DNA of 64,000 nt from Jaminaea rosea (taxonomy: Eukaryota; Basidiomycota; Exobasidiomycetes; Microstromatales), in contig NW_020289982.1 of assembly GCF_003144245.1 (NCBI RefSeq), forward strand, positions 186,001 through 250,000. Reading direction: 5' to 3'. Positions 47,740 to 64,000 of this stretch are shown piece after piece. The notes under the pieces are model-generated. The model did no database searches and had not been told where the DNA came from. It saw only the letters and a program-made list of their open reading frames with translations. The translations under genes and the position numbers were made by a program. Positions within the stretch are counted from its first letter, which is position 1, and every line of letters begins with the position of its first letter.

Positions 47740-48278
47740 GTGGGCGAGCTGGAGTGAGGGTGGCTAGGTGAGATCGATGTGCGGAGATGGTGCGAGGCGC
47801 TAGCGAGATGAGATGGGCGAGCGAAGATGGGCGTTCGTCGAGGTCGTGAGGTCGTAAAGGTCGTTAAGGGGCGGCGTGAAGGGACGACGAGGAGTGGACT
47901 GGAGGGTAGATGAAGGGATCAAGAAGGAGCACAGGCGCAAAGAGCAGGAGTCAAAGCGAACGGGCCGTTCCTCGTCACGGAGGGCATGATTTCGATCGAG
48001 GCAGGCTCAAGCGGGCAACGAGCCCCTGAGTGAGCTAGGCCCGTATTGAGCACCGTCGGAAAGACAACGCGGAAAGGGCCACGTGCCACAGCAGGAGGAA
48101 GCAGCGATCGCGTGGCAGGAACGGAGGCTGAGCTTGCTTTCCGCCTGGCTCGAGCTGAGTCGTCCCCGCTCGAGGCGCTTCGCCGCCTATAATATCTGCC
48201 ATCCTGACCTCAAACCCCGCCCCCCGTCTTCGTTCATCCTCCTCTCCTGTCCCTTCCTTCGCGAGCGCGCCCGCCATC
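47740..48278. other. Divergent promoter region, four-TM protein / TAF1
   Basis: A 539-bp spacer. A TATAATAT at about 48188-48195 lies some 85 bases before the TAF1 start. A GAGATG/GATGGGCG-type repetitive patch occurs near 47795-47830. No gene was seen. Confidence 0.45.
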
Positions 48279-51200
48279 ATGGAGGACGAGACGAGCGCCG
48301 TCTCGCAGCTGGGCTCGCTCGCCCTAGGCAATCTCCTTCAGGAGATCGGCGTCGAGTCGGAGGCGGGCATGGATCGACTGGGATTGGGGCCGCGTCCTTC
48401 TGCCGTCTCGAGAGATCAAATCTACAATGATCAGTTCGAGGACGATGACGATGAAGAGCTCAGGGGGATGGCAGGTGGTCAGCAGGCAGAGGAAGAAGAT
48501 GCAGCGGAGAAGGAGCGACTGGCCAGGGAGAGGCAACTGCAAGATCGCTACTTTGCCAAAGGGCTGGCTTCGATGCAGAGTAATCGTCCTGGGATACGAG
48601 GAGAGACGGATGACTTTGATGACTCAGAGGACGACGAGGACGAGAGACCTATGCCAGCGCGCGCTCAGGAGGAGCAGCCGTTGTCGCTACCGATGGCGTC
48701 ACCCACTCCTCGAATCAAGACGGAGCCAGAGGAAGGCCTCGACGCCTTTCAGAGCGGTGCAGGCGACGATGAACTCAACATACCGCAACCCGGGCCGTCA
48801 ACAGCACGCTCATCGCCATCCGTTCGCACACCTACACCGCCGCCTCCGATGCGAGACGTACGCGACTTTTGGCCAGACTTTGATCCAGAGGCCATCCTTG
48901 ATTTCACCGACTTCTTCGCTGCGCCGAGACGAAAGAAGAGGAGAGTGGCGCCGGGGAAGCAGCTCAAGATGCAGGCAGCCAAGGCGGCCCTACAAGCTAC
49001 GCCGTCGACGGTAGATCTGGCTCTGCGTCCGTCCGTGGACGCAGGCAGCCAGCCTTCTCACCTCGCGACCATCGCCGGCGACTTGCTCAAGGAGGAGAGG
49101 CGGCTTGCACGCCTTCGACTGGGCAAAGGACACGGCGATGACATCGACTTGCCCTCAACAAGTTTATCACTCCCAGAGCTCGACGATTGGGAGAATCGAA
49201 TCCTCACCGACGGCTCGACTCTACCTTCCTTTCAACCGGTTGGATCTATCTCTCGGCCGCTCAATCGCAACTTGGCCTCGGACGACTGGATCGAGGCCAT
49301 AATCTGGTCGCGCGATCAGGCTCGAGATCCTCGAAAGGTCGAGCTCAACAGCAGATTGGTCTTGGACCTCAACGATGAGGACATGATGATCGAGCGAGTC
49401 GATCCGGACGCAGAGAAGGCGAGGGCGGCCGCCATGCTAGCGTCGAATGCTCCCTTGCTCTCTCGCCGAGCAGCCGCTGCTGCCGCGTCACTAGACCCGC
49501 TCAACATGAGCAACGATGGCTACTACGAGCTGTCACGCGAGCAGAGGCAGCGCATTCAGAGGCAGACGCTTGGCGCACTTGTCGTCCAACACACCAAGAC
49601 GGCTCGCAAGCTGCAGCTGCCCTTCTACAAGACCCGCCTCACCAAGACCGAAGCGCGCTCCTTCCATCGGCCAGCGATGCAGTTTCCCATCAACATTCCG
49701 CTCACCTTTTCGCGCGTCGAAAAGGCAGGCGGCAAAAGGGATCGCAAACGCAGCGCAAAAGAGAATGCGGACGAGGTCTTCAAGTCCACGAGGGACCTTA
49801 CGCTCAAGGAGCAGGGTCCCTTTATCCTCTACGAATACTCGGAGGAGAATCCGCCCATCCCGAGCAAGATTGGAATGGGCAGCATCCTCGTCAACTACTA
49901 CCGCAAGAAGGATGCGAAAGACGAGCATATACCCAAGCACGACCTCGGCGAGCCATTCATCCTCGAGCCCAACGACCAGTCGCCCTTTCTCAATTTTGGG
50001 TCCGTCGAGCCCGGCCAGACCCAGCCCACCCTCTACAACAACCTCGTGCGCGCTCCGCTCTTCCGCCACCAGCCGGCCACGACCGACTTCTTGTTGGTCC
50101 GCGTCACGACGAAGAATGCGGTGCGCTACTACCTACGCGACATCAAGAACCTCTTTGTCGTCGGGCAGAATTACCCTCTGTCTGTGATTCCGGGACCGCA
50201 CGCCCGCTTGGTGACCAACGCGATCCGCAATCGTCTCATCATGGTCGCGCGCCGCCTCGTCGAGCAGAGCAAGGGCAATCGCATCAAGATCCATCGCATC
50301 ATGAAGTACTTTCCCGATCAGAGCGAACTACAAATGCGTCAGCGCCTTAAAGAGTTCATGGAGTACGCGCGCAAGGCTGGTGACCCGAATCAGGGTTTCT
50401 GGAGGTTAAGGACGACAGTGACCCTGCCTACAGACGCGGACATGGAGCGGCTCTTGCCCCCCGAGCACATTGCATTGGCCGAGGCTATGCAGGCAGGGCA
50501 GCGTCGGTTGTACGATGCAGGCTACACGCGCTCAGCGGAGGGAGCAGACGAAGACGAGGACAAGGAGCAAGGCCTCGACATTGAACAACAACTGGCTCCC
50601 TGGATCACGAGCAAGAACTTCCTCCAAGCTACGCAAGGCAAAGCCATGCTTCGCTTGCACGGCGAGGGAGACCCCACGGGCCGCGGAGAGGGTTTCAGCT
50701 TCGTCCGCGTGAGCATGAAGGACGTCTTCTTTAAAGCAGGCGAGGACATCGAAGCCCGCCTGGCCGCGCAAGCAGAAGAGGAGCGTCGCAGCGGCCACAA
50801 GTACAATGTAGCGCGCCAGCAGCAGATCTATCGCGAGGAGATCCAGCGAATTTGGGATGCTCAGCGCAGCGCGCTGTCCAACCCCGTGCCGCCCGAGTTG
50901 ACGCCGGAAGAGGCCAATCCGCTCCCCACGCCCGAGCCGGATGAGGAAGAAGAGGAGGCGCAACGGATGCAAGACGAGGAGGACGAAGATGTGAAGCCCG
51001 CGCTGTCATCGCTCAACGGCGTAGGAGGCGATCTCGACCGAGGGAAAGTGCTCCGCATCCGTCGCCAGGTCAACGGTCGCTGGCAGACAGAGATTGTGCG
51101 CGACCGCAAGATCATCCAGTCGTACATCTCCTCGCGCCTGCGCATCGCAGATGAAGACACAGTGACCGACGAACTCAAGCCGACGGGCGACGCTGCATTG

Positions 51201-51827
51201 GATGCTGCTCGTCGCAAGCGACTGGAGGCGGAGCTTCTGTCTCGCAAGAAGAATCAAGAGCGACGCTTGGCTCGTCACCATGCCAAGGCCGTCGCATCGG
51301 GCGAGGCGCTACCTGGAGCGTATCGCAAGTTGATGGCCGAAAAGCCCACAACGAGTCGTCGCTGCGGCCGCTGTGGGCAGGTGGGGCATATGAGCTCGAA
51401 TCGGTCTTGCCCACTCTGGGGGCAGGTACCGACTGCAGGAGCTCCGGGCACGGTCTCGTCTGCTTCCGGGTCGAAGCCATTGGGATTGGATACGGGCAGC
51501 GCTGGTGGGAGCTTGATGGGGTCCATGCCGGGTACCCCGGCGTCAGGAGGAGGAACAGTCCCTGCCTCACCCGCTACGCCTATGACTGCGGGCGGGGCCG
51601 CTGCTGGACCGGGAGGTAGCTTCTTTCCTCCCGGTGCTGCGGCGCCGCCGGGTATGTTTGCGACGCATTCGCGCACGCCCTCTTTCTCTGCTGCGGGAAG
51701 TGCGATGAGTCCGACGGTCGGTGGAGCTATGAGTCCGCCTCCGCCTGGTGCGCCTGCGAGCAGTAGTGGCGGGAAGGGAGGAGGGAAACTGAAGTTGAAG
51801 ATCAAGCCGAGGCCGAGTGGGTCGTAG
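48279..51827 (+). CDS. TAF1: TFIID subunit TAF1
   Basis: Largest TFIID subunit; scaffold binding TAF7 and TBP. Single exon, 1182 aa. An acidic N-terminus (IYNDQFEDDDDEELRGMAGG) may act as the TAND-like TBP contact. VRDFWPDFDPEAILDFTDFF and DDWIEAIIWSRD precede the central DUF3591 domain: PINIPLTFSRVEKAG, GPFILYEYSEENPPIPSKIG, MGSILVNYYRKKD, PFLNFGSVEPGQTQPTLYNN, RYYLRDIKNLFVVGQNYPLS, then the winged-helix part RIKIHRIMKYFPDQSELQMR. YDAGYTRSAEGADEDEDKEQ and NFLQATQGKAMLRLHGEGDP follow. A CCHC-type knuckle CGRCGQVGHMSSNRSCPLW lies near residue 1030, as in TAF1 orthologues. No bromodomain is present, as in yeast Taf1. It ends in a Gly/Pro-rich, basic tail. Confidence 0.95.
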   Translation: MEDETSAVSQLGSLALGNLLQEIGVESEAGMDRLGLGPRPSAVSRDQIYNDQFEDDDDEELRGMAGGQQAEEEDAAEKERLARERQLQDRYFAKGLASMQSNRPGIRGETDDFDDSEDDEDERPMPARAQEEQPLSLPMASPTPRIKTEPEEGLDAFQSGAGDDELNIPQPGPSTARSSPSVRTPTPPPPMRDVRDFWPDFDPEAILDFTDFFAAPRRKKRRVAPGKQLKMQAAKAALQATPSTVDLALRPSVDAGSQPSHLATIAGDLLKEERRLARLRLGKGHGDDIDLPSTSLSLPELDDWENRILTDGSTLPSFQPVGSISRPLNRNLASDDWIEAIIWSRDQARDPRKVELNSRLVLDLNDEDMMIERVDPDAEKARAAAMLASNAPLLSRRAAAAAASLDPLNMSNDGYYELSREQRQRIQRQTLGALVVQHTKTARKLQLPFYKTRLTKTEARSFHRPAMQFPINIPLTFSRVEKAGGKRDRKRSAKENADEVFKSTRDLTLKEQGPFILYEYSEENPPIPSKIGMGSILVNYYRKKDAKDEHIPKHDLGEPFILEPNDQSPFLNFGSVEPGQTQPTLYNNLVRAPLFRHQPATTDFLLVRVTTKNAVRYYLRDIKNLFVVGQNYPLSVIPGPHARLVTNAIRNRLIMVARRLVEQSKGNRIKIHRIMKYFPDQSELQMRQRLKEFMEYARKAGDPNQGFWRLRTTVTLPTDADMERLLPPEHIALAEAMQAGQRRLYDAGYTRSAEGADEDEDKEQGLDIEQQLAPWITSKNFLQATQGKAMLRLHGEGDPTGRGEGFSFVRVSMKDVFFKAGEDIEARLAAQAEEERRSGHKYNVARQQQIYREEIQRIWDAQRSALSNPVPPELTPEEANPLPTPEPDEEEEEAQRMQDEEDEDVKPALSSLNGVGGDLDRGKVLRIRRQVNGRWQTEIVRDRKIIQSYISSRLRIADEDTVTDELKPTGDAALDAARRKRLEAELLSRKKNQERRLARHHAKAVASGEALPGAYRKLMAEKPTTSRRCGRCGQVGHMSSNRSCPLWGQVPTAGAPGTVSSASGSKPLGLDTGSAGGSLMGSMPGTPASGGGTVPASPATPMTAGGAAAGPGGSFFPPGAAAPPGMFATHSRTPSFSAAGSAMSPTVGGAMSPPPPGAPASSSGGKGGGKLKLKIKPRPSGS

Positions 51828-53751: not shown

Positions 53752-56713
53752 TTAGTTGTGGCTGGTCAATGACCAGTCAGACAGCGCCACCGACGGAGGA
53801 GCCGTCTTGTCCGCGTCGTTGAGGTTGTCCCACTGCGGCTGGAACCAAACGGCAATGGTGCCCGAAGGGCTGGGAGCCTTAATCGAGAGAACAGTGACGC
53901 CCTTGTTGAGCTGGTCACCCTCCTCGTTGGCCGCCGTGTTCGGGTCAGAGCCGTACTCGCGCTCGGCGGGCGGACCCTGCGTGCTGAAGGTGGCACCAGA
54001 GGGCTGCTGCAGGGTGAGAATGACCGTCTCCGTCTTGGGGAGAGACTGCACAAAAGGCTCGTCAGCGCCACCGTAGGCGTTGGGGTTCTCGACCTTGCTG
54101 ATCTTGAGCGTCGCCGTCCTCTTGTCGTCGGAGAGAGTGACAGTGGCATTGGTCTGCATGCGCCACTCAACCGAGGTGATGGAGCTCGACGACTTGATCT
54201 CGTCCTGAACGAGCATCTGGCGACGCCCGTTGAGGAAGCGGATACCACGCTGGACCGAGCCACTGCTGGCCTGGTTGTAGCACGAGGACATGTCCGTGGT
54301 GAAGTAGGCGACGTCAGACTTGCCGGGGACAAAGTCAATTGCGCCAGTCTGCTTCACGCCGGTCGTCTCCATCTTGTTGATTGGGTGGCACGAGGCCGCC
54401 TGGTTCTCGTTGTTGATGACGAGCGTGTTCTGACCCTGCGTGCCCTTGCGGTAGTACTGCCAGCGGACGGCATTGTCTGCCTCGGACTTGAAGTAGTCGG
54501 TCGAGAGGTAGTTGGCCGAGCCGTACTCGCCAGCCCAGCGGGTTCCAAGGGCGTCAAAGACAAAGTCTCCGGCGTCGAGGTCGCCGTGCGTCTGGTGGCC
54601 AGTAGCGTTGGACGACTTGACGCCGATGTAGGTGCCCGACGTGTCGGTCCACGAGCTGCGCATGCTAGCCCACGAGCCGAGCTCGTTGTCAAAGAACTTG
54701 TCGAGAGCGAGACCGTTCCAGAAGGCGCCCTTGGACGACGTGTCGTACCAGAACATGCTCAGCGGGTCGGCTGCGTCGGCGCGGTCACGCTGGAAGAGGC
54801 CGTAGATGGGCATCTTGTACTGCTTGGCCCAGAGGAACATGCCGTTGGCCGTCGTCGAGTACTTGTTGGGTCCGTTGTCTCCGTACGCGAAAAGACCAGC
54901 TTGGCCAGTCACGTACATGTGGAAGAGACCAGTCTGTCCCCAGCCCTGGTTGGCAGAGAGAAGTCCCTGGTCGTTGCCCGTCGAGGTGAGGAGAGAAGAC
55001 ATGGCGCGAGCCTGAGCATCAGTGCCAAAGTACCAGTAATTGGCCGTCTCGGACCAGGTTCCGTCTTCATAGGCGCCCTGCATGCAGTTGCTCTGCATGT
55101 TGGGCACAGCGTTCTGAACAATCTTGGCTGCGGTGCCAGTCGGGTCCTCGGTCCAGATGGCAAGGGCGCCCAGGAGGAGACCAGAGTTGCACACGCAGTT
55201 CCAGTTACCGTTGGTGTTCTTCCACCAGCCAGCGCTCGTCGAGTACTGGGTCATGCCCTGGTTGAGGCCGTTGGTAATAATCGACCACATGATCTTCTGA
55301 CGCTGGTCGGGTGTCCAGACGTCGTAGAGCCAGTCGTAGGCAATACCAAAAGCGGCGGTGAGCTCAGCCGTGTCGAGGAAGTGAGCAGGATTCCAGACTT
55401 GGTCGTCGGCGAGGCCAGCCTGGACAGCAGAAGGCTTCCAGACGTCGGTCGACGAGTTGCCCGCAGCAGCCTGGAGCTCAGTCCAGGCACGGTCGACCCA
55501 CTTGGTGTTCTTGGAGATGCGGTAGGCGTAAGCCCAAGCCTTGATGCGCTGCTGGACATCACGGGCGGGGTCGAGGATACCAGAGCCGTCGAAGCCGCCG
55601 TCGACGTCGTAGGCAGTAGGAGGCTGGTTGGCCCAGTTTGTCGCATTCTCAAAGATGGATGCGTTCCAGACGGTCAGGTAGGCGTCCTTTGCAATCTTCT
55701 GAGGCAAGCAGTCCCACTCGTACTGAGCAGCCATGAGACGAGGGTGGTCACGGAGAGCGCCAGAGGTGAGGGAGCCGCTAGGAGGGCTGTTGTCGGTGCA
55801 GGTGGCGACCTCCTGGCCGTTGCCCGTAGGGCTAGCGGTAGTAGCCGTCGAGAGGAAGGCGGGGTTGCCGTAGAGGTCGGTGCCCTGATAAGTGAGCTGG
55901 TCACCGCCACCGGCTGCCGCAGCGCTCGAAGCTGCAGATGCGACGGACGAGTCGATGTTGCTAGGCTTCTTTGAGCCTTCCTGGCCGGAGAACGTGCTGG
56001 CGCCCGTCTTCTGTCCGCCGTTGTTGCTGGCAGCACGAGAGCCAAAGATACCACCGAGGACAGCGCCTGCGATGATGAGGATGGCTAGGATACCAAGCGG
56101 AATTCCCCACTTGACCCACTTGGACTTGCCCTTCTTGGCGGGCGCATACGAGTACTTGGCAGCGGTAGCTTGGGCTGCGTTGGGGCGGCGATACGCGCGA
56201 GTTGGTTGAGAGCGCCATGACGAATCGTAGGGATCGTCGGACCAAGCGGCATTGACCGAGTCGTCGAGTGATTGAAACGAGCGGCGTTGGTGGGAGTTGG
56301 GGTGATGGGAGGTGAAATGGTGCAGACGAATGTCAGCAGACTGATCGTAATCCTTGTACATATTGACAAGCTCGCAGAGAAGAGTGGGAGGAAAGAGGCG
56401 TCGTCGCAGCCATCGAGGGTCGCCGACATCGCTGCCCTGCTCTGTGCCTGACGCCTTTGCCCTCGCCTCGTCTTGCGTTCTCATCTCGCCGCTCGCGCTC
56501 GCACTCACCCGGATTGTTGCCGGAGCCAGGCGCACCACCGTAGCTTCCATCTTTATAGTAGTGGTCGCTCTGCGGCGTCTGCGAGCCGTAGTGGTATCCG
56601 CTCTGCTGCGAACCGTACTGTTGGCCAGGGGAGTCATAGTGCCCAGAGTACTGATTGTCGTACTGCGAGGCGTTGGAGTGCATATAAGGGTCGTGTGGGC
56701 GTTGATAGGACAT
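53752..56713 (-). CDS. Membrane-anchored heparinase II/III-like polysaccharide lyase
   Basis: Two exons (56713-56509, then from about 56441 or 56447 to 53752) give about 964-966 aa. The N-terminal cytosolic part is Tyr/Gln/Gly-rich (SQYDNQYSGHYDSPGQQYGS). One TM segment KWGIPLGILAILIIAGAVLG makes it a type II membrane protein. A Ser/Ala-rich stalk precedes the catalytic half. An alpha-barrel shows HPRLMAAQYEWDCLP, AYAYRISKNTKWVDRAWTEL, AFGIAYDWLYDVWTPDQRQK, YEDGTWSETANYWYFGTDAQ, then a beta-sandwich with GHQTHGDLDAGDFVFDALGT and RWAGEYGSANYLSTDYF. The H-x-H-x-D-x-G and NYW patterns are those of the heparinase II/III superfamily, which cleaves uronic-acid polymers. The true substrate is unknown. 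It could be a cell-surface lyase for an extracellular glycan; the glycan-synthesis-type genes to its right fit that. Confidence 0.85.
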
Positions 56714-58117
56714 GGTGGGCAATGAGAAGAGGGGGCCGCAGAGAGATAGGGAAAGGGAAGAGAGGGTGGCAAAGCCGACTGTCGCGAGACTTTTGCTAAG
56801 CCTTCGACTCGACTCAAGAAGTAAAGTGCAGCGCCAGCTATACGCTGAATGCGCTCAAGGATGGAGAAAACGAAGCAACGAGGGGGAAAGAGGGTATGGT
56901 AACAAGGATAAGAAGCCTTTCGAGGATCAGTCGACTCGACGACTGCGATGCCCAGTCGGCGAATCAGGTGTTTCGTAGCGTTGCGTTGCGTTGCGCTGCC
57001 TTCGTCGTCGTCGCGGCGTCGTGGCTGCTCTCCTGTTTGTTTCAGCAGTTGAGTGGCGGCGGCGGCGGCGGAGGGCGGCACTTGCCTGCAGCAGCCCCTG
57101 GCCATCGGCGCGGCGCGGTCACTTTCGACGCCCGTCCACCACACGAGGGCAGGCAGGCAGGCAGAGAGGCCAAGAACGCCGCTGCCCCGGTGGTCGATCA
57201 AATCTTTTCCTCTGTCGGCACGCGAGCCAGAGAGAGCTTCGCCAGCCGTGCGAGGAGCCAGAGTAGGTTGGGTTGGTTCCGCGCTGTCGCCAAGCTCGCA
57301 GCGTACAGCGAGCGTACATTGATCGAGGAGCAGTCAATGGCAGCGAGGAGCGTTGAGGGGAGGGACCAGGTGGTCGTCGCGCGAGCCGCCGGCACGACGG
57401 CATAACGGCAGGCAGGCTGGCAGGCAGGCTCGACAAGCACGTCTCGTGGCAAAGCTCACTACCTGACATTCAGCGGCTCCGAGGAGAAAGACCTTCACGA
57501 TGTCGTCCTTCTTCGCCCTGATCGAGCGCTAGCGGGCTCAATTGAAGGCGACGAAGACGGGCGACGAGGCTAGCGTGCGCTCGCGGTGTCCGTGCGAAAC
57601 GTGGGGGCAATCCGAACACCAACTTTGGGCTCGCCGCGTACACGAGTCCCTTTGTTCTTGCCCGCGCGTTTCCCACGTCGACACGTCGTGACAACAGAGC
57701 TGTGAGCCCGCGATCATGGCAGGGTCGCCCAAGCTCGGCAGAGGCACAGAAGTCTCATCTCGATCAACATCGGCTCTGTGGAGCGATTCACCTCGCGAGC
57801 GAGCGTGCACTCAACCTCGCCCGTGACGGGAGGTCGGGGCAGAAGTCATTGCGCCGCTCGAAGCGGTGATTGCGAGGAAGTCGTGTCGCTTCTTCGTCCC
57901 GCGTGAAGCATCGTGGCTTGCGAGTCGTTGCTGGTCATCTCAGCACTGGAAGAGATCACTTTACCTCCCAGGCGAGATGGAGCCAATACGCTGGTTAGGG
58001 AGCGAGATGCATCGTCAGGGCGCGCGCTTACAAAAGGGAGAGGTCGAATGTATCTTGATGCCCGACCTTCCCCTGCCTCCTCTCCCGATCGCATTGCCCA
58101 ACGTTGCACTCACCATC
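56714..58117. other. Promoter region of the heparinase-like gene and the secreted-protein gene
   Basis: A 1.4-kb divergent spacer. Short GGCA/GGCAGGCA runs occur near 57147-57163 and 57409-57428, and a GGCGGC run near 57057-57071. The open frames here are not protein-like. No gene was recognised. Confidence 0.45.
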
Positions 58118-58557
58118 ATGCCCTTCCCCTGCCACCGCCTCTTCCACGTCGCCCTCGCTGGCCTCCTCTTGGCCATCTGCTGGTGCTCGCTCTCCATCGC
58201 AGCTCCAGCCTCGTCACCTACAACCATCGAGCCAGGAACAGCCAATGCTACGCTCACCGCTTCAGCAAAGAAGCGCGCAAACTCGGTTGGCCCTCCATAC
58301 AACTCCAAGGGGCAAGGCTGCTGCACGGGCGGATACCGCGACCCGAACAAGTGAGGGGCAGTCGAGCGACCCTATCAGGACCGCAGCGCTCGAGCTGACC
58401 ATCCGCCGCTTCCCTCCCGCTTGTGCGCATGCTTAGGTGCTGGAACGCCAACCGTGTGTATTCGACGTGCAACGGGGCACGGGCTGAAGGCCAGGAGGAG
58501 AACGAATTCGGGATCCCGCTTCCCTCGCACGGCCCCCATCGCTTAGCGCCTACCTAG
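58118..58557 (+). CDS. Small secreted cysteine-containing protein
   Basis: Two exons (58118-58350, 58437-58557) give 117 aa in one frame. The N-terminus MPFPCHRLFHVALAGLLLAI-CWCSLSIA has a basic start and a strongly hydrophobic core, as in a signal peptide, with likely cleavage around APA. The mature part has four Cys: GQGCCTGGYRDPNKCWNAN and VYSTCNG, then a charged tail. Size, signal peptide and few cysteines fit fungal small secreted proteins (effector-like or cell-wall proteins), but such features are common. A longer in-frame start at 58058 would put residues before the signal and is less likely. It lies between the heparinase-like and GT2 genes. Confidence 0.65.
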
Positions 58558-58827
58558 CGTGCCACGCACTTTTTGGCAAAGCTTCTTGTTGCTCGAGTTG
58601 AATCGTCGATGGTGTGTCGCGAATTGGGTGTATGAGCCTCGCGCTTGCCTTTATGCGGGAACGAAGGGACACGCCGATCCCCGCACGCTCACGCTCGCTA
58701 CTCAGTCGGCCCTCGCGGTCGCTATCATCGTATATATTCGTGAGGTGACATCCGTGACATCCAATCCTATGGTGACAGTAAAGAACAAGGTGACGAGAGA
58801 AGACCGAGACAAAGAGCAAGATGGAGC

Positions 58828-61400
58828 TCACGCCACGTTGCCACTCTGGCGGATAACACCTGCTGGTGGCGCCGCGTAGGGCAGTGTGGGAAGGGCAGCA
58901 ACGATGATCCTGCTCTTCCCAAAGGTAGCTTTCCCTTCCTTGAGATCGATCGGAGCTACACTTCCACCGCTGTCGCGTCCGCGCGTAACCGTCGTCGCCA
59001 TAGAGCTGCGCGAGTCCTCGCGCACAGAGAAGAGACCGGTGGACGGTCGAGTCGAGGGAGCGTCCTGCGAAGAGTCGGAGGATGATGCCAATGATTCGGT
59101 GTCGTCTGTGATGCCGGTGAATTGGCTGTCTGACCGCAGCAGCGCGGCTGCCGTCGCGATGTTCGAGACTTTTGGCTCCTCTTCGAGTGCATCATGGAAG
59201 TCGACGTCGTGGAAGTCCTCGGAGATGCGCCTGACGGCAAAGTTGGCCTTCTCCTCGACATGCTCTTCCTCGATATCGGAGACGTGCTCCTCCCTTGTGA
59301 CTTGAATCGCGACCTGGGGCGGCGGTGACGTCGCAGTAGCTCGGTTGAACGGAGAGGCGGGGCCAATTGCGGGCGGTGCCATCGCTGGAGCCGGTGTCTT
59401 GGCTTCGACCTCAGCCTCGCTGCCGTGAATGCACTCTTGATCAGCAGAGTCGGCAGCCAGAGCCCTGGTGCGGCCCCACGAGAAGTCGTCCGCGTGCTGA
59501 ACAGCGTAAGCGATGATGCAGCAGCCCATAAAGGGGCCGCAGAAGAAGAGGAGAAGCAGGCCAAGGGCATATTGTACCCTCTGCTTGGCGTTGTTGTTGG
59601 CCCAGCCCACACCAACGATGGTGTAGCACCAAGGGAGGAAGATCATCGACGAGAGAGAGAGCACGACCGTGTAATCGTACCCTCCTTGGCTGATGTGCAC
59701 AATGGCACGGATGAGCTGACCGAGGGTGGCAAAGATGAAAAAGGGGATAGCCCAAATGGCAATGTCGACAAATGCGCAGAATCGTTCCCAAATGTTTTGC
59801 TTCGAGCCAAAGAGGACGACGAGGTCGTTGGCCGAGGTAGAGAGTGTCCAGCGACGGCGTTGGGAGAGGAAGACTTTGAAGCTTTGAGGCGGGTCCGTGT
59901 AGGCGTGGGCTGACCAGCACATGCGCGTCTGGCTCTCGGGAAACTCATTAAACATGTTGACGACTGGTGTGCGGCAAGGTGGATCAAGTCAGCGTGGCGT
60001 CGATGGCTTCAAAGATGGACATCATGCGCGCTCACCATGGTTGCGGTCTTCGCCCGCAAAGGCGCGGATGGCCTTCGCGAGAGAGTCTTGCTGAGTAGGG
60101 TAGTAGCCAAAAGTGTCCACACAGATCTTGTCACCGCACGTCTCATCGACGACCTTGAGGATCTGGCAAGCTCCAGGGAGACAGGTGACCTTGTGCGTAA
60201 CCTCACTCTGGTGCGTGCGTCGCAGAGCTTGCGCACGCAGATATTCCGCATTCTGATAGAGGGACCAGAATCTCCAGGCTGTACCGTTGCGGAAGGCTAC
60301 ACGAATGACTCCAGATACGCCCACCGTCTTGGGGTTCTCGCGGACCTTGGCGATGAGGTGCGCCGTGGCTTCGTCGCTGAAGGTCGTGTCTGCATCTGTG
60401 CCTACAATGTAGTCAAAGTGCCTGATGTCGTTGCCAGCGATGTCTGAGCCAAAGCTCTTGAGGAACTCCTCAGAGAAGATGGTCTCTTCGGCAGGTCGAT
60501 TGTGGTTGAAGGCGTAGAGGAGACTTCGAAGTGCAATGAGTGTGTCACGCTTGCCGCGATTAATGTCCTTGTTGATGACCAGGTAAGGCAAGCCCTTGTA
60601 TTCTCCCCATTGACAATTGATAGAGACTGAAGTGCCGGTCCATGATCGGTAGGCCGACTCATAACGTCGTTGAGCCGTGACGGTCACGTCCTTGCTGGCC
60701 GCAAAGAGGCTTTCGAGCAGCATGTCCGCTGTGGTCAACGACTCGCCAGCGCCCTTGACATGACCGTCGCAGAAGACAATGAGGAGTTTGCGGTGCTGCT
60801 CAACCTTGGCTTGCGAGTAGAGGGACTCCACTGTAGCCTTGACTTCAGCCTCGCTCTCATTGTAGCACGGCACGACGTAGGCGAGCGTGCAGGGGTCCGT
60901 CTTGCGCTCCAATGCCGCGACCTTGGCTGCGTCAGCCTTCTCGTTGACCTCTTTCGATCGCACAAGGCGTGCGAGGGCGGAGGCTGAAGGGGTGAGGAGT
61001 CGCGTGTGGATCAGCCAGCCAGTCATTGAAAGCACCATGCAGGTGTTCATAAAACTGATGCAGGCGCAAAAGGGGATGAAGATGTACCAGATCTTGGGGA
61101 TAGCCCATGACAGACTGATGAGGACGATGTTGGACAAGACCATCATGGCCATGAGGGCGTATTTGGTGTGACGGCGTCGCTGCTTGCCGTCGGCGGTGAA
61201 GCCCGCCATCTTGAAGAGGAAGTGGGGCTCGCTGGCAGCGTCGCCCTTGGTGTCCAACTCGGTGGTCGAGGAGCGCAGCATGATCGCAACGGCTGGTGAG
61301 GAGCTGATAGAGGGCGGATGGAGGATGGCGATGATGGCGTCTTCCAAGCCCTCGACATATCGGGCGAGCGTGTATATATCCTCGTCGAGGATCCCAACCT
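58828..61400 (-). CDS. Chitin-synthase superfamily GT2 membrane glycosyltransferase
   Basis: Processive family-2 glycosyltransferase. Two large exons (61400-60036, 59963-58828) join in frame to at least 833 aa. The first exon starts after an acceptor with VGILDEDIYTLARYVEGLED, so a short 5' exon is still missing; the first in-frame ATG is at 61281. Motifs in order: TM pair (ALMAMMVLSNIVLISLSWAI), LAYVVPCYNESEAEVKATVE, YLVINKDINRGKRDTLIALR (substrate-loop Lys), DYIVGTDADTTF (DxD), CLPGACQILKV, GEDRNH spanning the intron, and SQRRRWTLSTSAND (QxxRW). Several TM helices follow, then an acidic, Ser-rich cytosolic tail. The catalytic set is that of chitin and hyaluronan synthases. It diverges from the dehydrogenase gene at 62646. 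Donor sugar (UDP-GlcNAc or other) is unknown. Confidence 0.85.
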
Positions 61401-62645
61401 CTGCAGAGAGGGCAAAGAGGTTGAGAGGAGAAGTCAGCCAGTTTGCAAGGCGTTCGACGGGATCGCGTGCGCCCCTTCGGCCGCGCTACGGTCGAGACAC
61501 TACGCCACCCCTTCGCAACTGAGCCAGACAAGAGCCCTTGGCAAGACTCTACGCCACTGAGAGGATGCTGCCCTTGCTCGCCCGAAGGGAAAGATCTCAT
61601 GCGTGCTTGTCTCTTCACCTCGTGCTGATCGCCAGGCCGTAATACGTCGCCTTCTGGCTATTCCCATCCCCTTGCTTGACTTTCCCGCTGGCGGCTGCCT
61701 CGCCCTCGCTGCGCATTTGCTGCTCCTGCACGTCGTGCTTTCCCGCCTCTGCGGCCACCCGATATAGAACAGCCACGGCTGTGATCGAGTCGACGCACCC
61801 GCAGTGGGCCCCGCTCACCTGCAGTCGTCGCCTGCATCTGAGAAAGGCAAACAAACAAATGTTGAGAAAGCTCTGTGCTCAAAGTGGTAATGCACTAAGT
61901 GTCGATGGCAAAAGTGGCTTGAAGCCGACGGAGCAGACGCAGCTGCGAGCGGCAGACGCCACTGCAAACGCGACCGGGAGGCCGGAAGCGCAGGCCGGCC
62001 GGACCTTCCCTTTTTCAGGCTCTCGCCTTCATTTCTGGGTGCGATGTCGCCACCGCCAACCAGTCCAACATCACACGCGCCAGCGCGTCTTTCGAATCGG
62101 TGGTGATGCATGGCAAAGACTCCTCGCGAATGCTTCGCAACACCTTTTCGTCCCGCTCATACATTCGAGTGCAGCGTCGCCTCACTTTTCCCGGCGGGGA
62201 GGGGGACCCCTCGTTCGAGGAGGCTTCGCGGGCCATGAATCAACGCCTCCTCATGGTGACATGGGGTCGAGACCAAGGTCATTCAGCGAGATGGACTGTA
62301 GTTACCACGCTCGTCACCTCACCCGGCTCGTCTGCCGCGGCTTAGTAGCCTTGGGGGCGGGGCCTTGAGAGGACAGGAGGCGGAACAAGCACACGTCCAG
62401 TAGCCAAGGCAGTTCCGAAGACGGGCTCAGGCTCAGGCTCAGGCTATGGTGGCGCAGGACGATCGCTACCTCAGTGGTGCGCGACTGAGAGAAAGCTTGC
62501 ATCGCTGCAGCATCTTCGAGCCTTCTTCAAGAGTACATATGAAACGACTGAAACATGCGATCTGAGATCTTTCCCCCATCACCATTCCTCTTCACCTAAA
62601 CGCGGCATCACCGACCTCGCCAGTCTCACTCTATCCTTTAGCACC
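61401..62645. promoter_or_regulatory. Shared spacer between GT2 and nucleotide-sugar dehydrogenase
   Basis: A 1.2-kb spacer between two outward-facing genes, also containing the unresolved first exon of the GT2 gene. A hexamer GGCTCA repeats four times near 62425-62449. CT-rich stretches occur just upstream of 62646. No other gene was recognised. Confidence 0.5.
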
Positions 62646-64000
62646 ATGTTCGCCACGCCTACTCGCCAGCCTGCGCGCGCCTTTCGCCGCCATACTCAGG
62701 CCTCTTTCTTCACGCCCGGTCCTCAAACACCACCCGACACAGAGGTCGAAGCGTCGCCTTTCCCCGGCAAGCTTGACCTCAGCTTCCCAGCCTTCACCGA
62801 TCCCTTCGCCTCCGTGCGCATGGGCATGCCAGTCATCGCCCCTCCCAGTCCAGCAACATCAGACGAGGAAGATGATGACGACATGGACATCAAGACGCCA
62901 TCGAGCATCAGCCGTCTGCCCAGTGCCACGGCTCGACCCTCGAGCCTTGTGGCCAAGCCGCAAGTCCAGAAGCCTTGCGAACCACGACCCACCGTCCTCG
63001 TCGTTGGTGTTGGCTACGTCGGCAGACATCTCGTCGAGCGCTTCAGCGATGCTTGCGATGTTGTCGGCTTGGACCTCAGCGCATCTCGCTGCGATCTGCT
63101 CTGCCGCGAGTTCAAGGCAGATGGCTTGAGCAACATCACGATGATCTCAGACATCGAGCAGGACGAGCGCTGCTCTACCTTTGACTTGGCCCTCATCTCA
63201 GTCCCGACGCTCCTGCTTGCGGACAACAAGACTGTCGACACAAAGCACATTCGCGCCGCCGTGGAAGTCGTCTCTCAGCGAGCAAGGCCTGGAAGCACTG
63301 TTGTCATCGAGTCGAGCGTCACCGTCGGCATGACCAGGGCTCTCCTTGGACCCGAGGGCGCCAATCTGCGTGCTCGAGGCATCTTTGTTGGCTTCAGCCC
63401 GGAGCGCGTAGACCCCGGCCGCACCCTGCCGCGTTTCGAGGACATTCCCAAGGTCGTCTCAGGCATCGACGACGCAAGCCTCGCCGCTATCACTCGTCTC
63501 TACTCGCGCTCCTTCAACAGTGTCGTACCCGTGCGCTCCCTCGAGACGGCCGAGTTCTGCAAGCTCTACGAGAATTGCCAGCGTCTCATGCTCATTACCT
63601 ACGTCAACGAAATGGCAGACGCTTGCGAGCAGCACGGCGTCAACATCCACGACGTGTGCGCCGCGAGCGCTACCAAGCCCTTCGGCTTCACGCCCTTCAA
63701 TCCCTCTCTCGGAGCGGGCGGTCACTGCATTCCTGTCAACTGCTGGTATCTTCTGCAAAACTGCGAGATCCCTGTGCTGCGAGCTGCTGCCGTGTCCAAC
63801 AGGCAGCGACCCGCACGCAAGGCAAAGGAGATTGCTCTCCTCGCCCACGAGCGCAACAGCCGCGCGGGAGACCACCCTCCCTCGGTCCTCATCTACGGCA
63901 TGGGCTTCAAGGCAGGAGAGGCGTCGCTCGCCTACGCACCAACTGTCACCCTCGCCAGGGAGCTCGAGGAGCAAGGTTGCAGGGTCTCGTACTTTGACGA
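62646..64000 (+). CDS. Nucleotide-sugar 6-dehydrogenase (UDP-Glc/UDP-HexNAc type), 3' end cut off
   Basis: NAD-dependent enzyme oxidising C6 of a UDP-sugar to a uronic acid. The open frame runs from ATG at 62646 past the window end (451 codons seen, no intron). A Pro/Ser-rich N-terminal extension of about 115 residues precedes the Rossmann motif VLVVGVGYVGRHL. Then come LISVPTLL, VVIESSVTVGMT, GFSPERVDPGR with DIPKVVSGID, the catalytic-type ETAEFCKLYENC, and the nucleophile region LGAGGHCIPVNCWYLL. YGMGFKAG opens the C-terminal domain. The PERVDPGR-IPKVVSG pattern recalls bacterial UDP-HexNAc dehydrogenases (WbpA/WecC) more than eukaryotic UGDH. The product could feed the adjacent GT2 enzyme. 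Its substrate is not provable from sequence. Confidence 0.88.
   Translation, partial: MFATPTRQPARAFRRHTQASFFTPGPQTPPDTEVEASPFPGKLDLSFPAFTDPFASVRMGMPVIAPPSPATSDEEDDDDMDIKTPSSISRLPSATARPSSLVAKPQVQKPCEPRPTVLVVGVGYVGRHLVERFSDACDVVGLDLSASRCDLLCREFKADGLSNITMISDIEQDERCSTFDLALISVPTLLLADNKTVDTKHIRAAVEVVSQRARPGSTVVIESSVTVGMTRALLGPEGANLRARGIFVGFSPERVDPGRTLPRFEDIPKVVSGIDDASLAAITRLYSRSFNSVVPVRSLETAEFCKLYENCQRLMLITYVNEMADACEQHGVNIHDVCAASATKPFGFTPFNPSLGAGGHCIPVNCWYLLQNCEIPVLRAAAVSNRQRPARKAKEIALLAHERNSRAGDHPPSVLIYGMGFKAGEASLAYAPTVTLARELEEQGCRVSYFD

Follow-up and report, generated by a model that had tools for sequence, protein, structure and literature searches.

A chitin-synthase-like GT2 and UDP-sugar dehydrogenase gene pair in Jaminaea rosea, probably for an acidic chitin-type polymer, beside a PL35-type lyase gene that is probably an unrelated neighbour

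One known pairing of a membrane glycosyltransferase of family GT2 with a UDP-sugar 6-dehydrogenase is streptococcal hasA/hasB, where hasB is a UDP-glucose dehydrogenase (UGD). A comparable pair has been described in fungi: a chitin-synthase-like (CHSL) gene adjoins a UDP-N-acetylglucosamine (UDP-GlcNAc) 6-dehydrogenase (UNGD) gene in Sordariomycetes, two Aspergillus species and three Ustilaginomycotina, among them Ustilago hordei, while a figure legend of the same work speaks of two basidiomycetes (PMC4059230). The same pair was reported in two phycodnavirus groups, the chlorella viruses and EsV-1, horizontal transfer was proposed, and the role of UDP-N-acetylglucosaminuronic acid (UDP-GlcNAcA) in fungi was described as unclear (PMC4059230). 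Other work named two CHSL classes, ESV and CV (PMC5122149), and a chs8/cda1/UNGD cluster of Trichoderma, which includes a deacetylase, gave rise to speculation on a chitin/hyaluronan synthase (PMC7053769). The available titles and abstract openings of the literature on the pair name no product. Here we describe what is almost certainly a copy of this pair in the basidiomycete Jaminaea rosea (Ustilaginomycotina, Microstromatales), located with an adjoining lyase gene in a window of 64,000 bases (C8:186001-250000; contig C8 has 736,123 bases, in a genome of 16.6 Mb and 21 contigs).

An initial annotation of this window had proposed three neighbouring genes for a lyase, a GT2 synthase and a dehydrogenase, all of which exist at the coordinates that it gave:

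53752..56713, minus strand: PL35-type lyase (Hepar_II_III_C), predicted type II membrane protein, 875 aa; exons 56713-56509 and 56174-53752
58828..61837, minus strand: CHSL-type (chitin-synthase-like) GT2, 839 aa; exons 61837-61819, 61400-60036 and 59963-58828
61838..62645, no strand: intergenic region between GT2 and dehydrogenase, 808 bp, the distance between the divergent start codons
62646..64000, plus strand: UNGD-type UDP-sugar 6-dehydrogenase, N-acetylhexosamine (HexNAc)-like, truncated by the window end; whole gene C8:248646-250166

The two-exon lyase model and the three-exon GT2 model are exactly the annotated J. rosea proteins P0241 (875 aa) and P0121 (839 aa), with 100% identity over the query in both cases. 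These proteins rule out a lyase splice model of 966 aa, which used a wrong acceptor, and a GT2 start at 61281, which is too short. The dehydrogenase runs from a first ATG at 62646 to a stop at C8:250166, 166 bases beyond the window end, and passes the nucleotide sugar dehydrogenase model TIGR03026 (224.6 bits against a cut-off of 189.8). The divergent pairing of GT2 and dehydrogenase had been recognized correctly, and the 808 bp that separate their start codons are a possible shared promoter.

Homologues were collected with queries of 596 aa for the GT2 (a shorter model), 782 aa for the lyase (from within exon 2) and 451 aa for the dehydrogenase (truncated by the window), with scoring limited to the candidates having most words in common. 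The listed rows referred to below are the best 120 of 341 matches for the GT2, 120 of 820 for the lyase and 120 of 1225 for the dehydrogenase, the window's own proteins included. Linkage was judged by equal size of the longest contig, which alone represents a multi-contig cluster, so that linkage counts are lower bounds. In these rows GT2 and dehydrogenase share a contig in at least two cases beyond J. rosea, one a metagenomic contig of 17,457 bases (P0123, P0027) and the other a contig of 76,397 bases with both proteins named Fusarium agapanthi (P0169, P0108). Other named Ustilaginomycotina are absent from the 120 of 341 GT2 rows, and linkage in those species is taken from PMC4059230. The idea that such a locus might not be described for this lineage has to be dropped, the pair having been published for Ustilaginomycotina including U. 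hordei (PMC4059230, PMC5122149): it is of a known type, to which J. rosea adds a species and an order. Moreover, no polysaccharide deacetylase (PF01522) was found on contig C8, all seven genome matches lying on other contigs, and this favours the ESV type for the J. rosea pair.

By its sequence the dehydrogenase looks like an enzyme of HexNAc type. NCBIfam models for HexNAc substrates score it at 84-99 bits, against 39-50 for UGDs, and its family profile ranks the PDB entries 4r16 (4.3e-51; a hypothetical UDP-N-acetylmannosaminuronic acid (UDP-ManNAcA) dehydrogenase in its depositors' naming) and Cap5O (4.6e-40) at the top, followed by CalS8 (1.5e-31), 3gg2 (5.3e-26), 3g79 (5.9e-26) and the best UGD (6.3e-25). 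CalS8 and 4r16 draw level when only the window sequence is used. Where this genome's own UGD carries the stretch GGSCFxKD, GGHCIPVN is found in the J. rosea enzyme and in 118 of the 120 listed rows (its own included), the remaining two being one with GGHCIPIN and the fragment P0005, which lacks the site. What weighs against the assignment is that the scores stay far below the HexNAc equivalog cut-offs (WecC-type, 99.4 against 459 bits; TviB, 85.5 against 592 bits).

The genomic context of the enzyme bears on its substrate. J. rosea has three PF00984 genes, two for GGHCIPVN enzymes on C8 and C7 and, separate from both, one for a classical eukaryotic UDP-glucose dehydrogenase with GGSCFQKD on contig C1 (L025:3687-5607). 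A search for UDP-GlcNAc 2-epimerase (PF02350) found none in the J. rosea genome and was positive in 11 of 14 control genomes, so that UDP-N-acetylmannosamine is an unlikely substrate; UDP-N-acetylgalactosamine may be one. Given a HexNAc-type dehydrogenase, a separate classical UGD and no detected 2-epimerase, UDP-GlcNAcA would be the likeliest product. In kind, the original analogy with hasA/hasB holds, as a GT2 of processive type paired with a probable UDP-uronic-acid-making enzyme is supported; the acid itself, because the dehydrogenase looks HexNAc-type, is probably N-acetylglucosaminuronic acid (GlcNAcA) and not glucuronic acid (GlcA).

The checked catalytic motifs are intact in both GT2 and dehydrogenase. 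In the GT2, QxxEY is present as QNAEY (Q and Y in 120/120 listed rows, E in 118/120) and QxRRW as QRRRW, with a third position that is R in 112/119 rows and K in 7/119. The first alternative to consider is that this GT2 makes ordinary chitin, with a dehydrogenase that serves another pathway or merely tunes the UDP-GlcNAc pool. Chitin_synth_2 is indeed by far its best Pfam match (PF03142-type, 147.7 bits against a cut-off of 27), its family profile favours chitin synthases (6.5e-5) over hyaluronan synthase (0.031) in the PDB, the top two PDB matches of its structure model in Foldseek are chitin synthases, and deletion of Fgchs8 lowers chitin (PMC5122149). However, EDRxL, the criterion for a canonical chitin synthase (PMC5353729), occurs in all seven other chitin synthase genes found in J. 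rosea, whereas the GT2 has EDRNH, as do 113 of the 120 listed rows, with EDRNY in the other 7. The sharing of contigs by GT2 and dehydrogenase and the fusion of a dehydrogenase-like tail to some GT2s, described below, also speak against plain chitin, as does the behaviour of the Wangiella pair: low pH lowers the expression of both its genes together and raises that of six of seven chitin synthases (PMC4059230). In a GT2 tree, long branches and 100/100 support separate the family clade from two J. rosea genes that match Chitin_synth_2 in full. Altogether, we consider the ordinary chitin synthase unlikely.

A second alternative is a hyaluronan-like polymer built from UDP-GlcA and UDP-GlcNAc, for which one may invoke the hasA/hasB-like layout, the speculation on the Trichoderma cluster (PMC7053769) and the fold of the GT2 model, where Chs1 and chlorovirus hyaluronan synthase are tied. 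This model has a mean pLDDT of 69.5, and its ten-residue blocks at 71-620 score 74-97, except for 54-61 at 141-170. Its two best viral structure matches (BFVD), which support the identification of the pair as CHSL-UNGD, are M1HWF1, a 551-residue viral protein (E 2.1e-33, 25% sequence identity), and ESV-1-84 of EsV-1 (E 3.9e-29, 19%), both with a TM-score of 0.86 by target, and the next is a viral chitin synthase (E 4.9e-14); sequence scans of viral contigs confirmed no relative. The HexNAc-type appearance of the dehydrogenase, the separate UGD on C1 and the chitin-synthase-like SWG and QxxEY stretches retained by the GT2 all argue against hyaluronan, which we regard as very improbable.

The explanation that we find probable as a whole is a CHSL-UNGD pair making an acidic chitin-type polymer, with the lyase independent of it. 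The dehydrogenase would oxidise UDP-GlcNAc at C6 to UDP-GlcNAcA, and the membrane GT2 would join GlcNAcA units, with or without GlcNAc, by beta-1,4 linkages to form an acidic chain of chitin type, which it would extrude to the cell surface. The likeliest glycan would then be a GlcNAcA-containing chitin-type polymer and not hyaluronan. The PL35-type lyase would be an independent, lineage-wide membrane enzyme of basidiomycetes, acting on 4-linked uronic acids of surface glycans.

Two further arrangements, in J. rosea itself and in black yeasts, are hints of a joint action of GT2 and dehydrogenase. The second UNGD-type dehydrogenase, on contig C7 (L019:5067-6599, minus strand; 55% identity to the query P0001), stands head-to-head with a different GT2 (L024:1338-3798, plus strand, C7:620837 onward; three exons, 772 aa) at a distance of 2,238 bp, counted from the first Met of the frame. 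This GT2 is the best PF13641 match of the genome (51.1 bits), and sequence comparison gives no relative of it in the PDB. Thirty-nine chosen dehydrogenase rows were placed in a tree, where the named Ustilaginomycotina and metagenome rows form one clade (100/100) and the C8 and C7 enzymes belong to two Microstromatales groups that are sisters, the result of a duplication.

The second arrangement came from a search of 73 GT2 tails of at least 60 residues, taken from the 104 of 120 listed GT2 rows that have the motif used for cutting. In P0130 (Exophiala xenobiotica) and P0173 (Elasticomyces elasticus according to one source), the last 347 residues form a tail of which about 200 residues match the family profile of the dehydrogenase (2.6e-30 and 5.6e-26, respectively); the tail of P0183 gives a doubtful value of 0.015. 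TIGR03026 also matches P0130 at 697-840 (9.1e-7), with a Pfam match of only 0.012. Because GGHC is absent from both tails, they look like non-catalytic pseudo-dehydrogenase domains, and since P0130 and P0173 form one clade in the tree, a single lineage is involved. They might still conceivably be merged gene predictions, although P0130 represents 31 member sequences. Such a fused tail is a concrete reason to suspect a complex of GT2 and dehydrogenase. The available main text of PMC4059230 contains no mention of fusion, fused or C-terminal, and no account of the C7 head-to-head arrangement or of a dehydrogenase-like tail was found in the available literature on the pair. A wider proposal, which we offer as tentative and rather doubtful, is that the fungi with the pair make a beta-1,4 GlcNAcA polymer of wall or capsule, an acidic chitin, by means of a dehydrogenase-GT2 complex, and that in Microstromatales the duplicate dehydrogenase took another GT2 as its partner, so that two uronate polymers are made.

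The third gene was initially described as a membrane-anchored heparinase II/III-like protein, and this description is borne out by a Hepar_II_III_C match of 39.2 bits (cut-off 24) and one strong hydrophobic segment ahead of the lyase domain. A segment of this kind precedes the domain in 112 of the 120 listed lyase rows (97 internal, 15 near the start), fitting a predicted type II membrane anchor in most of them. The closest structures found by phmmer belong to PL35 (8khv, 9.8e-50; 8khw, 1.2e-40; 9o3q, 9.2e-36), a family already present in basidiomycete CAZyme inventories (PMC9499651, PMC8052766). In the numbering of PMC12088678, mapped through the phmmer alignment (offset of 22, our own), the equivalents of the catalytic triad Asn192, Tyr246 and His401 are each conserved in 120/120 listed rows, and the position of Asn191 is Gly in 120/120. 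The four positions of the GAGase II Mn site (His403/Asp405/Asp421/His457) hold Asp in 120, Asp in 120, Glu in 119 and Gln in 120 of the 120 rows, so we name the enzyme PL35-type. The basidiomycete PL35-type lyases thus show a near-invariant Asp, Asp, Glu, Gln where the bacterial GAGase II has His, Asp, Asp, His, and these positions are perhaps a variable part of the family. The J. rosea protein is likely an active beta-eliminating enzyme with a different metal site.

Whether the lyase belongs with the pair is a separate question. As first proposed, the three genes would be one functional locus in which the pair synthesises an acidic polymer and the membrane lyase trims it. Several points tell for this and against an independent lyase: the gene is the sole PF07940 (Hepar_II_III_C) match in the J. 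rosea genome and the first gene of any size beyond the GT2, about 2.1 kb away; its triad is intact throughout the listed rows; and its chemistry would suit a 4-linked uronate. However, of the seven species in which both lyase and dehydrogenase occur among the listed rows, Parajaminaea alone has them on one longest contig (3.85 Mb), and the longest contigs differ in the other six (J. pallidilutea, Microstroma, Testicularia, Ustilago hordei, U. trichophora and Melanopsichium). This comparison includes a single direct orthologue test, that of the congener J. pallidilutea, which alone has a C8-type dehydrogenase; those of Parajaminaea and Microstroma are C7-type, and those of the other four are co-orthologues of C8 and C7. 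The lyase P0253, whose contig measures 17,432 bases, close but unequal to 17,457, was counted as unlinked. The listed lyase rows also include Malassezia, Rhodotorula and Coprinopsis, for which no named GT2 or dehydrogenase row appears among the matches listed; we take the lyase rows to cover Ustilaginomycotina, Pucciniomycotina and Agaricomycotina. Because the lyase is distributed across Basidiomycota and, in six of seven relatives, does not share its contig with the dehydrogenase, its place is probably due to chance and it is probably an unrelated neighbour of the pair, whereas a single three-gene locus seems improbable.

As for the surroundings, a short open frame between lyase and GT2 (window 58118-58354, plus strand; 78 aa) begins like a signal peptide, contains a Cys pair and is a candidate ORF only. 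Upstream of the lyase there is a large DUF3591 gene of TAF1 type (window 48159-51827, plus strand), and beyond the dehydrogenase a scan of four ORFs gave a kinase, a SUR7-family protein and two without match.

J. rosea thus offers a compact case: a single CHSL was found, alongside two UNGD paralogues and one classical UGD, and a UDP-GlcNAc 2-epimerase was not detected. Like streptococcal hasA/hasB, it has a membrane GT2 next to a UDP-sugar 6-dehydrogenase, but the dehydrogenase looks HexNAc-type. With the PL35 enzymes GAGase II and VII (8KHV, 8KHW; PMC12088678) its lyase shares the catalytic Asn, Tyr and His, and differs in the predicted type II anchor, in the change of Asn191 to Gly and in the Mn ligands. 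The Trichoderma chs8/cda1/UNGD cluster (PMC7053769) likewise combines a chitin-synthase-like GT2 with UNGD, but includes a deacetylase, whereas C8 has no PF01522 match. The closest likeness is with the CHSL-UNGD cluster (PMC4059230; ESV and CV of PMC5122149): the same two families are adjacent in Ustilaginomycotina, the closest viral structures of the GT2 are ESV-1-84 of EsV-1 and the 551-residue viral protein, and C8 is without a deacetylase, as in the described clade without a third gene. What sets J. rosea apart is a new species and order, Microstromatales, a divergent arrangement over 808 bp, an adjoining PL35-type lyase and a second UNGD paralogue paired with a different GT2.

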